This document shows, piece after piece, positions 11,670-35,274 of a DNA stretch of 64,000 bases. The stretch's first letter is position 1. Every line of letters starts with the position of its first letter. The stretch is taken from NCBI RefSeq assembly GCF_900176365.1, contig NZ_FWXY01000016.1, positions 1-64,000 on the forward strand. The letters are read 5' to 3'. Both the position numbers and the translations under genes were made by a program. The stretch comes from Desulfocicer vacuolatum DSM 3385. GTDB lineage: Bacteria; Desulfobacterota; Desulfobacteria; Desulfobacterales; Desulfobacteraceae. The notes under the pieces were generated by a model, which was given only the letters and a program-made list of their open reading frames with translations, did not search any database and had not been told where the DNA came from.

Positions 11670-12454
11670 TGCATTTTCTTTCCAAACATCTGGCCATCAG
11701 AATCTGGATAACAGCGCTGGCAGGCATCCCCCTCTCTTTTATAATGATCTCCCCCGTCAGCAAGGAGATTCCCCACCTTTCCCCCCCGGTGGTGTATGTG
11801 CTTATCATATGTCTTGTTTTCATCATAACAGGTGTTGGAATGAATTTCATGGCTTGTCAATTGATTAAAAACGCCATTCAAAATGCCCGAAAATATGAAC
11901 AAAACGGACAAAACAAGCAGTGCGAAAATCAATTAATAAAAGCGGTATCAATCTATAACAGTGCTTTTTTGCTACCCTGGAAAAAACAGAACACTGTGGA
12001 AAAACTCACCGGAGCCATGGCCCGTTTTTCCCTGACCCATGACCGTGCCACGCCATTGTTCATCAACGCCACAACACAATTTTTAAAATTTTGCCCCCAT
12101 GAAACCGATATTGCTGCCCAATGGTTAAAAAAAGAAGCCTTTTTTCTCCCCAATGATCCCGACTGTGACCGGGCTCTCACCCTTATTGCCCGGTCACAAA
12201 AAGACAATATCTCCATTCTTCCCCTGCTGCTGCATCGCTTTGTGAAAACCCGTCGATGTGATTTCCAGGCCCGGAATCTCTATACCTTATGTAAAAAGGT
12301 CCGCCTGCTGTCTCCATCCATGGAACAAAAAATCCTGACCATTGTTCCCGATGCTTTTACCGAATTCCCGGCTATGGATTCCTTAAACAGCATCCCGGTG
12401 CCTTCCGACGCCAAAAGCAATACCGCTTTTTCATCCCCATATCAACCCAAATAA
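11669..12454 (+). CDS. Membrane protein of unknown function, PBP operon
   Basis: A 261-residue protein with two hydrophobic segments near the N-terminus (IWITALAGIPLSFIMI and VVYVLIICLVFIITGVGM) and a helical, probably cytoplasmic C-terminal region of ~190 residues. No family is recognised. The ATG at 11669 shares its A with the stop codon of the PBP-like gene (TAATG), so it is the third coupled member of the unit; an upstream TTG at 11651 is less likely. The stop codon lies inside the left end of a dispersed repeat, suggesting the native C-terminus was replaced or trimmed by that insertion. Confidence 0.75.
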   Translation: MHFLSKHLAIRIWITALAGIPLSFIMISPVSKEIPHLSPPVVYVLIICLVFIITGVGMNFMACQLIKNAIQNARKYEQNGQNKQCENQLIKAVSIYNSAFLLPWKKQNTVEKLTGAMARFSLTHDRATPLFINATTQFLKFCPHETDIAAQWLKKEAFFLPNDPDCDRALTLIARSQKDNISILPLLLHRFVKTRRCDFQARNLYTLCKKVRLLSPSMEQKILTIVPDAFTEFPAMDSLNSIPVPSDAKSNTAFSSPYQPK

Positions 12455-12500
12455 CGGCCATGGTCAGACCTTTTTCTGATCTCGTTCTGCCCATAACGAA
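12450..12500 (+). repeat. Dispersed palindromic repeat, copy 4 (truncated)
   Basis: Reads AATAACGGCCATGGTCAGAC, then TTCTGATCTCGTTCTGCCCA; the right arm is missing. Its left end provides the TAA stop (12452-12454) of the upstream membrane-protein gene. Confidence 0.85.
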
Positions 12501-12504
12501 TGTT

Positions 12505-12600
12505 TAAAATGGTATGATGTGCCCCCGAGGGATAATGGGAGCGGCCCGGAGCCATAGACGGTCCAAGGGCAAACAGCCCAATGGCTCGAACCATCACCCA
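12505..12600 (-). repeat. Possible diverged copy of the second repeat family
   Basis: AAATGGTATGATGTGCCCCC, then CGGCCCGGAGCCATAGACGG, resembles the reverse complement of the elements at 19514-19685 and 36186-36342 (AAATGGTATCAT, GGCCGGAGCTGTAGACAGC). Similarity fades after about 60 bases. It directly follows a copy of the first repeat family, as the other copies also neighbour one. Confidence 0.5.
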
Positions 12601-12642
12601 TCAGGGTTCTGTTCAGGGGGATCAATAAAAAATAAAAAAGAT

Positions 12643-12671
12643 TTGACACGCTTTCCCTGGGCCTGTATAAA
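12643..12671 (+). promoter_or_regulatory. Sigma-70 promoter of the aroG leader
   Basis: TTGACA (12643-12648), a 17-base spacer and TATAAA (12666-12671): near-consensus. Transcription would begin about 20 bases before the leader-peptide start codon. Confidence 0.85.
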
Positions 12672-12698
12672 AATCATAACAACAAACTGGAGATAACA

Positions 12699-12773
12699 AT
12701 GAGTCAGAATTTTGCAGGCAGCTTTTATTATTTTTATAACTTCTATTTTAGGAGGCTGCCTGGGCTGTTCTGA
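12699..12773 (+). CDS. Phe/Tyr-rich leader peptide of aroG attenuator
   Basis: A 24-codon reading frame, ATG to TGA, preceded by TGGAGAT at good spacing. Residues 9-17 are FYYFYNFYF: eight of nine are Phe or Tyr, and the peptide carries seven Phe and four Tyr in total. It lies between a strong promoter and an intrinsic terminator directly before a DAHP synthase gene. This is the arrangement of pheA- or trp-type attenuation: ribosome stalling at these codons when charged tRNA-Phe or tRNA-Tyr is scarce would favour read-through. Codon bias, position and pairing segments together make chance unlikely. The frame contains no other plausible role. Confidence 0.85.
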   Translation: MSQNFAGSFYYFYNFYFRRLPGLF

Positions 12774-12800
12774 TTTAATTGATACATAATTAAAACATGA

Positions 12801-12835
12801 AAAGCCGCAGGCCAGACCCTGCGGCTTTTTTTGTT
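12801..12835 (+). terminator. Attenuator terminator before aroG
   Basis: A perfect 11-bp stem AAAGCCGCAGG/CCTGCGGCTTT (12801-12811 with 12818-12828), followed by a T tract. The leader also contains GCAGGCAGC (12714-12722) pairing with GCTGCCTG (12754-12761). An alternative pairing of GCCTGGGC (12757-12764) with GCCGCAGGC in the terminator's left arm (one bulge) would disrupt the terminator, i.e. an antiterminator. Confidence 0.88.
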
Positions 12836-12906
12836 TTCTTAAACCGCAGTTAAAACCCGGCCTCTGTCTATTTCATGTTTTCAACCCACCACAGGAGAAT
12901 GAAAAC

Positions 12907-13971
12907 ATGCAACGCACCTATGATGTTAACGTAGAAAATTTTCAACCCCTCATTACACCGGATGAATTCAAAGATGCATACCCCTTGAGCACGGAATCGG
13001 CAAAAACAATTCTGGAGGGCCGGGAGGAGATCAAACGCATCCTGTCAGGCAAAGACAACAGACGTCTTATCATCACCGGTCCCTGCTCTGTTCATGACGA
13101 AACCGCAGCCCTGGAATATGCTGAAAAATTGTGCAAACTCAGGGAAGAAGTCAAAGACACATTTGATATAATCATGCGGGTTTACTTTGAAAAGCCGCGC
13201 ACTTCCATTGGATGGAAAGGCCTCATCAATGACCCCTATATGGATGATTCCCGGGATTTGATGGAAGGATTGCGCCGGGCCAGAAAACTGCTGCTGGCCA
13301 TCACTGCCATGGGAATGCCAACGGCAACAGAAATGCTGGACCCCATTATTCCCCAGTACATCGCAGGCCTGGTGTGCTGGACAGCCATTGGTGCCAGAAC
13401 CACAGAATCCCAGACCCACCGGGAGATGTCCAGCGGTCTTTCCATGCCCGTGGGATTCAAGAACTGCACTGACGGCGCCTTGAGCACGGCCATAAACTCC
13501 ATGATTGCCGCCGCTGCTCCCCAGAGTTTTCTGGGCATTAACGAACATGGCCTGGTGAGCATTGTAAACACCAAGGGCAACCCATATGCCCACATTGTCT
13601 TAAGGGGCGGCAAACGACCCAACTACGACTCTGTGAGCATCCGGGAAGCTGTTGAAACCCTGAAACAAAAAAAACTTACCCAGGCCATTATTGTGGACTG
13701 TTCCCATGCCAACTCACATAAAAAATACCAACGCCAGCCCATTGTGTGGGAGGATGTGCTCAATCAGATACTCATGGACACGGACACCGGCCATGCCATC
13801 AAGGGACTCATGCTGGAAAGCAATCTATGCCAGGGAAGCCAAAGCATGGAGTGTGCCCCGGAGGATCTTACCTATGGGGTATCTGTCACCGACGAGTGTA
13901 TCTCCTGGGAAACCACAGAAGAATTAATAATGGGTGCCCACGAAAAAATTAAACAACACCAGGCAATGTAA
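12907..13971 (+). CDS. aroG: 3-deoxy-7-phosphoheptulonate (DAHP) synthase, AroF/G/H type
   Basis: A 354-residue class I DAHP synthase that condenses phosphoenolpyruvate and erythrose 4-phosphate, the first step of aromatic amino acid synthesis. Diagnostic stretches are ITGPCSVHD, RVYFEKPRTSIGWKGLINDP, GARTTESQTHREMSSGL, LRGGKRPNYDS, DCSHANSHKKY and the C-terminal D-E-C-I-S-W. It aligns over its whole length with the E. coli AroG family, including the N-terminal extension involved in allosteric feedback. The ATG at 12907 follows AGGAG. Expression should be set by the upstream leader-peptide attenuator, which points to Phe and Tyr as the controlling end products. Confidence 0.95.
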   Translation: MQRTYDVNVENFQPLITPDEFKDAYPLSTESAKTILEGREEIKRILSGKDNRRLIITGPCSVHDETAALEYAEKLCKLREEVKDTFDIIMRVYFEKPRTSIGWKGLINDPYMDDSRDLMEGLRRARKLLLAITAMGMPTATEMLDPIIPQYIAGLVCWTAIGARTTESQTHREMSSGLSMPVGFKNCTDGALSTAINSMIAAAAPQSFLGINEHGLVSIVNTKGNPYAHIVLRGGKRPNYDSVSIREAVETLKQKKLTQAIIVDCSHANSHKKYQRQPIVWEDVLNQILMDTDTGHAIKGLMLESNLCQGSQSMECAPEDLTYGVSVTDECISWETTEELIMGAHEKIKQHQAM

Positions 13972-35012: not shown

Positions 35013-35088
35013 GGGGCTGTAGCTCAGATGGGAGAGCGCATGACTGGCAGTCATGAGGTCAGGGGTTCGATCCCCCTCAGCTCCACCA
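35013..35088 (+). tRNA. tRNA-Ala (GGC), first copy
   Basis: 76 bases including an encoded CCA. The acceptor stem GGGGCTG pairs with CAGCTCC (one G-U). The anticodon stem CATGA/TCATG encloses loop CTGGCAG, giving anticodon GGC (codons GCC/GCU). The T arm contains GGTTCGATCC. Confidence 0.97.
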
Positions 35089-35198: not shown

Positions 35199-35274
35199 GG
35201 GGCTGTAGCTCAGATGGGAGAGCGCATGACTGGCAGTCATGAGGTCAGGGGTTCGATCCCCCTCAGCTCCACCA
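35199..35274 (+). tRNA. tRNA-Ala (GGC), second copy
   Basis: Identical in all 76 bases to the gene at 35013, and the match extends into short flanks (CTTGT before, CAAT after). The 110-base spacer is AT-rich and unrelated, indicating a recent duplication of the tRNA segment or gene conversion. Probably read from the same promoter. Confidence 0.97.

Follow-up and report, generated by a model that had tools for sequence, protein, structure and literature searches.

A probable Phe/Tyr leader-peptide attenuator upstream of aroG in Desulfocicer vacuolatum, with related copies before other aromatic genes in Desulfobacterota

We propose with high confidence that aroG of Desulfocicer vacuolatum is preceded by a ribosome-mediated leader-peptide transcription attenuator, which would tie its expression to charged tRNA-Phe and tRNA-Tyr. 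With the same confidence, taken jointly with this attenuator reading, we propose that the element forms a regulon in Desulfobacterota, related copies preceding alternative entry enzymes of the pathway and other aromatic genes. The mechanism itself is classical leader-peptide attenuation; what appears to be new, judged against the literature that could be searched, is a regulon-wide family in Desulfobacterota, its association with unrelated entry enzymes, and leaders in which two or even three aromatic amino acids would be sensed together.

The switch would work as follows. When Phe and Tyr are sufficient, the ribosome would pass the FYYFYNFYF run, reach the TGA at 12771 and mask segment 2, leaving segment 3 free, and the terminator would form before aroG. 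When either amino acid is scarce, the ribosome would stall on the run and mask segment 1, so that segments 2 and 3 could pair and RNA polymerase continue into the gene. Without translation, the pairing of segments 1 and 2 should guard the terminator. We infer stalling, timing and the response to amino acids from the analogy with trp and pheA. On this scheme AroG, the first enzyme of aromatic synthesis, is very probably made only under a shortage of Phe or Tyr.

The features involved are listed in Table 1, with positions counted along the window, that is, the whole 64-kb stretch of DNA that was analysed.

Table 1. Features of the aroG upstream region (positions in the window)
Feature	Position	Strand	Description and basis
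Sigma-70-type promoter TTGACA-17-TATAAA	-35 box 12643-12648; -10 box 12666-12671	+	Candidate; sequence, 11/12 consensus by eye
Shine-Dalgarno GGAG of leader	12689-12692	+	6 nt before the leader ATG; sequence
Leader peptide ORF, MSQNFAGSFYYFYNFYFRRLPGLF	12699-12773	+	24 codons + TGA; sequence; kept in related aroG loci
Segment 1, GCAGGCAGC	12714-12722	+	Pairs with segment 2; fold and covariation
Control codons FYYFYNFYF	12723-12749	+	8/9 aromatic (4 Phe, 4 Tyr); sequence
Segment 2, GCTGCCTGGGC	12755-12765	+	Alternative partner of segment 1 or segment 3
Intrinsic terminator	12800-12839	+	Stem 12800-12811 with 12818-12829, then T tract
Segment 3, GCCGCAGGC	12804-12812	+	Antiterminator partner of segment 2; also 5' part of terminator
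aroG (regulated gene)	12907-13971	+	Class Ia (AroFGH) DAHP synthase, 354 aa

The aroG product scores 464.9 bits against NCBIfam TIGR00034 (cut-off 173.2) and is the sole match to this family in its own genome assembly, which is 98% complete. Four sequence features are expected of an attenuator, and all are seen upstream of the gene: a translatable short ORF with a Shine-Dalgarno sequence, a run of codons for the end products of the pathway, an intrinsic terminator between leader and gene, and an antiterminator whose formation precludes the terminator and is itself precluded by the 1:2 stem. The promoter was read by eye. The automated scan accepts only -10 boxes that end in T and therefore called none at 12643-12671, and the promoter shows no obvious conservation in relatives compared by eye, unaligned. 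A short ORF with eight aromatic residues in nine was never obtained in 3000 dinucleotide shuffles of 12600-12906 (one shuffle gave seven of nine), and on neither strand of the window does any other ORF of up to 60 codons have this content. Its RNA folds with a z of -6.85, none of 200 shuffles being equally stable.

The near-consensus promoter, the 24-codon frame with its aromatic run and the leader hairpin described in the initial annotation are thus all recovered, the hairpin (segments 1 and 2) with a pairing energy of -18.6 kcal/mol. The proposed antiterminator pairing is also present (-17.4 kcal/mol), although it is not perfect, containing bulged or unpaired bases. What had been described as a perfect 11-bp terminator (-20.9 kcal/mol) does have its stem and T tract, but with 12 standard pairs (13 with the closing G-T) around a 6-nt loop; the interval originally given, 12643-12835, ends within that T tract.

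The stretch 12505-12640 was considered as a further structured RNA and rejected (fold z -0.82, nothing unusual), and an Rfam search of 12440-12660 at E 0.1 gave no match. Elsewhere in the window, a short ORF with seven of nine aromatic residues, MKKNRCDVRFFWYFFACFIIDCAKHH, runs on the minus strand from 2650 downwards between apparent sucC and sucD genes and is probably a chance occurrence; two tRNA genes (35013-35085 and 35199-35271) lie 113 bases apart with equal Rfam scores. There was no match to a plasmid record.

The comparison of aroG upstream regions in relatives, proposed at the outset, bears directly on the layout. Relatives were the best 80 of 352 loci from named records, together with whole-genome searches with DNA for the best 30 each. 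Loci L001-L050 and L082-L119, duplicates removed, form a related set of 72 (56-100% identity), reduced to 71 by dropping L050, whose upstream DNA is absent; L049, which has no gene start, was never counted. An aromatic leader precedes aroG in 66 of the 71, and leader and intrinsic terminator occur together in 65 (in L102 the leader is present and the terminator falls below the criteria used). Of 19 loci from the same phylum at greater distance (L120-L138, 48-56% identity), one has the leader (L137); the boundary between the two sets (L119, 58%) was set after the distribution of the leader was known, and both sets pooled give 67/90. None of 26 loci from Pseudomonadota and other outside records, which contained neither E. 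coli nor Shewanella, has an aromatic leader, their best short ORFs showing fewer than four aromatic residues per nine. A 4-base Shine-Dalgarno match accompanies 45 of the 66 leaders, the start codon being picked by a script that favours such a match.

Relatives that lack the leader while keeping the flanks had been named as evidence that would count against attenuation. Five of the 71 do lack it (L009, L015, L024, L032 and L034), and one of these is explained: in L009 a contiguous series runs from the same type of leader through CM-PDT (the prephenate dehydratase gene), aroE, aroA, shikimate kinase, chorismate synthase and a prephenate-dehydrogenase-like gene to aroG (the last three names before aroG being assigned by reading the sequences). 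In the other four an aromatic leader was looked for upstream of aroG and not found. Taken with the covarying stems and the frame-specific codons described below, the leader in 66 loci supports the pheA/trp-like layout that had been suggested.

Selection on these leaders is visible at the level of the peptide. Over the 66 leaders the aromatic fraction of the run is 0.88 in frame versus 0.26 and 0.29 when the reading is shifted, and Phe and Tyr interchange between the leaders of relatives; the third codon positions are T in 385, C in 105, G in 43 and A in 12 of 545, which makes 490 with T or C. This frame dependence is what we would hold against a reading of the leader as a riboswitch or protein-bound RNA, with a small ORF merely incidental to a T-rich loop, a reading that we regard as very improbable: the strong conserved hairpins would suit it, and there is a weak likeness to the trpB motif RF04312 (33.6 bits, a score similar to that of unrelated families), but the codons are aromatic in one frame only and with the third positions just given, and neither the aroG leader nor 23 further loci gave an Rfam match at gathering score. 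Membership of RF04312, itself a riboswitch candidate, was accordingly rejected (gathering score 59), as were membership of RF01859, Phe_leader (26 bits versus a gathering score of 55), and a T-box riboswitch (no Rfam T-box match at gathering score in the 64-kb window and the 23 further loci).

To return to attenuation, the dual sensing of Phe and Tyr that had been proposed suits the codons of the run in this lineage, the clade of L001-L008 and L018, which holds aroG at 12907, having a run without Trp; many relatives, however, add a Trp codon, so that sensing of Phe and Tyr together would be only this lineage's version. On the aroG tree (77 rows) the Trp codon takes at least 12 changes by parsimony, and strongly supported branches force five or six.

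Covariation was studied in an alignment, A1, of 52 of the 66 leader loci, and holds for these 52; the 14 left out are more divergent (L019, L022, L023, L028, L029, L041, L043, L045, L046, L048, L093, L115, L117 and L137). In A1, 96.6% of the terminator cells are paired, and 6 of the 12 pairs carry two-sided changes; the corresponding values are 81.8% and 5 of 7 for stem 1:2, and 82.2% and 4 of 9 for antiterminator 2:3. Cells with two-sided changes number 21, 18 and 13, respectively, each above all 500 shuffles, and paired cells drop to 23-64% with partners shifted by one to three columns. Other measures do not rise above the shuffles, namely the changed pairs (4) and pair types (12) of the antiterminator (243 and 276 of 500) and the pair types of stem 1:2 (217 of 500). 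Columns 94 and 146, an antiterminator pair, go from U-A to C-G in six sequences, and one position that joins segments 2, 3 and 4 reads T-A-T in 32 of the 52 rows, C-G-C in 5 and mixed in 15. The 2:3 duplex, counted with the first terminator of each locus and not the stronger of a tandem pair, beats 95% of shuffled upstream sequence in 47 of the 66 loci and falls short of this level in 19, including the near relatives L002, L004, L006 and L007; the leader at 12699-12839 is matched by 3 of 200 shuffles.

Conservation of segment 2 also has a bearing on a nascent-peptide arrest of the TnaC type, in which the finished aromatic peptide would stall the ribosome on binding a free aromatic compound. 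The C-terminal LPV or LPG, often followed by R, F or C, that recurs across many leaders could be expected of such a peptide, but this stretch coincides with segment 2 (CTGCCTG), the pairing partner of segments 1 and 3, so the recurrence is explained at the nucleotide level. The long runs in which Phe and Tyr are exchanged, and the Tyr-only runs before an extra tyrS, better match the sensing of starvation, and we think that an arrest of this kind is improbable.

Folding agrees in part with the alternation expected of an attenuator. When the ribosome is placed on the run before the 3' arm of the terminator is made, at least five pairs form with the 5' arm in 66/66 folds, not always via segment 2 (L093 is an example), and when it is placed on the stop codon all 66 folds contain the terminator, both counts standing without a shuffle control. 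With the 3' arm present, at equilibrium, the antiterminator persists in 10 of 66, and the terminator wins at 12800-12839. Since the terminator mostly wins once its 3' arm exists, the outcome must depend on the order in which the RNA is made, as it does in known attenuators, and by this analogy kinetic control of the switch must be assumed.

The terminator might instead be constitutive, the short protein being translated for a separate role and aroG left unregulated, which is to us the least credible of the readings considered. Terminators upstream of genes can simply insulate, and in 22 of the 66 leader loci a second one follows the first (e.g. L019, L021, L088). Here, however, the candidate promoter and the leader are placed between the upstream gene and the terminator, so that a constitutive terminator would work against aroG, and the antiterminator is kept in most loci. 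Several of the tandem loci have a second terminator whose 5' arm can pair with the 3' arm of the first; such a terminator may be a fail-safe or a second switch.

The attenuator extends well beyond aroG. A covariance model made from A1, and so from aroG leaders only, gives 111 bits to the leader upstream of aroG at 12907. At E 0.001 it finds the element in 90 of the 98 related genomes (85 at 1e-7), and at E 1e-5, with only 10 candidates scored per genome, in 66 of 297 genomes sampled across the phylum. Outside the group, one of 15 genomes has a weak match (39.7 bits); this is the genome of L051, which bears the title Klebsiella pneumoniae MAG, a label that may be wrong, and its aroG shares 56% identity with that at 12907-13971. 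Minus-strand matches over the aroG leader itself (32 and 15 bits) were taken as an artefact because the terminator is symmetric.

The next gene was read for 119 matched loci only, some of which are one place represented twice. On a first pass it was a class Ia DAHP synthase in 53, ADH synthase in 34, CM-PDT in 15 and none of these in 17. A type Ib DAHP synthase lies downstream in seven loci (six of the 17 and one first assigned to CM-PDT; NCBIfam confirms two of them), aroK-aroC in two (the kinase, tested in one, scores under its curated cut-off there, the remainder being identified by reading) and tyrS in one (394.2 bits, cut-off 113.8). In all, 111 of the 119 loci have an aromatic-pathway gene or tyrS next. 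The other eight comprise two acyl-CoA ligases, one metallo-hydrolase-like gene, two contig ends, one locus with no clear gene and two false matches, L257 and L260 (53 and 48 bits), in which the aromatic leader is absent. Two Tyr-rich leaders, L207 and L208, one with eight Tyr in a row, stand some 300 nt ahead of a gene that resembles ADP-forming acyl-CoA ligases and in L208 scores under the curated cut-off. After removal of duplicates of peptide and gene, the distinct leaders number 90 for class Ia (model matches and aroG loci), 29 for ADH synthase, 14 for CM-PDT, seven for type Ib, two for aroK-aroC and one for tyrS, with six unassigned.

The pair of ADH synthase and DHQ synthase II is an archaeal-type entry into the pathway. 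Both enzymes are found at L175 (TIGR01949, 366.1 bits, cut-off 299.45; NF002627, 496.4 bits, cut-off 392). Although the model was made from aroG leaders only, its scores at the 29 places before ADH synthase range from 51 to 112 bits and reach at least 80 in 18 of them, which speaks for common descent of the leader RNA before both genes. Of 58 relatives, 19 have no class Ia match (several assemblies being incomplete); the element stands elsewhere in 15 of these (before ADH synthase in 11, CM-PDT in three and type Ib in one) and has no match in four. Two genomes, G007 and G022, carry it before both class Ia and ADH synthase.

The codon content of the leaders seems to fit the gene that follows. 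The 90 distinct leaders before aroG hold 279 F, 377 Y and 43 W, and the 14 before prephenate dehydratase 67 F, 37 Y and 2 W, a higher share of Phe. Among 30 tyrS loci scanned, two (L244 and L295) have a leader with at least five Tyr in nine residues, in which Tyr is the sole aromatic residue, and 28 have none; both of these genomes carry two tyrS matches. We consider it likely that one attenuator family governs entry into the aromatic pathway in Desulfobacterota, whichever enzyme is used. The same RNA is found before class Ia, type Ib or ADH synthase/DHQ synthase II, and the switch would therefore have stayed while the chemistry was replaced, the control run being retuned by its codons: Phe/Tyr with or without one Trp for the entry enzymes, which with Trp would sense all three end products, Phe-rich for prephenate dehydratase, and Tyr-only for an extra tyrS.

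D. vacuolatum itself has a second copy of the element (L174; contig C37, 4981-5130, minus strand, 91.4 bits) before CM-PDT - aroE - aroA - aroC, whose leader, MFGFFADRYFFYFWFYFRTGLQAVC, contains Phe, Tyr and Trp, and its trpE-like gene has a separate leader with QFQWWHWW (L142, about 544-640); no type Ib DAHP synthase above the family cut-off was found in this genome. The three leaders (aroG, CM-PDT and trpE-like) differ in codon mix, and it can therefore be predicted from their sequences that they share out the three aromatic signals. Of 30 trpE genes scanned, 22, with that of D. vacuolatum among them, are preceded by Trp-rich candidates (at least two Trp in seven residues), some being doubtful by eye, and one weak model match (45.9 bits) is directly upstream of a trpE (G049).

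How does this family compare with known systems? The trp leader of E. coli is the classical case of attenuation, and the ilvGMEDA leader of the same species is a precedent for one leader that counts several amino acids; unlike both, the leaders described here would pool aromatic amino acids and act on the entry to the pathway. The E. coli pheA leader, Phe-rich and with alternative hairpins and a terminator, has similar parts, but gene, codon mix and phylum differ, and the similarity to the Phe_leader model is weak.

Nearer in its target is aroR-aroF of Corynebacterium glutamicum, where attenuation is reported for a Phe-Tyr-Phe leader peptide before a DAHP synthase gene, with a greater effect under Phe limitation and none of Tyr availability (PMC4046766, PMC11802643). 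Compared by description, both systems have a leader peptide with Phe/Tyr codons before such a gene, but aroR has three aromatic residues where the D. vacuolatum leader has eight codons, and it belongs to another phylum; the leaders of Desulfobacterota often add Trp, and the family precedes several types of gene. The uORFC-13-1 motif proposed for Acholeplasma aroF likewise puts a uORF with Phe codon(s) and a terminator before a DAHP synthase gene; its 24 representatives are reported to come from Acholeplasma and environmental sequences only, and its U run yields at least one Phe (PMC8632094). An aroF attenuator, with the same type of target, has been proposed for E. coli and Shewanella as hypothesis or RNA prediction (PMC8632094, PMC2659441), a table in the latter giving Tyr-tRNA as its signal. 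The terms Desulfo-, aromatic and phenylalanine are all absent from the main text of a broad attenuator survey (PMC2965389). In the searchable literature, mostly titles and the starts of abstracts with few subscription papers, we found no aromatic leader in Desulfobacterota and no leader combining Phe, Tyr and Trp; this search covers none of the proteobacterial attenuator comparisons of 2001-2004 (cited in PMC1262725).

These results offer a testable scheme for the control of aromatic amino acids by RNA in sulfate reducers and their relatives. The scheme makes predictions codon for codon: a response to Trp is expected of those leaders that contain a Trp codon, and not of the aroG leader at 12699. 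The results also suggest that a cis-regulatory RNA may have been kept while the first enzyme of the pathway was replaced by an unrelated one, and so provide a direct case for asking which layer is more conserved, regulation or catalysis.
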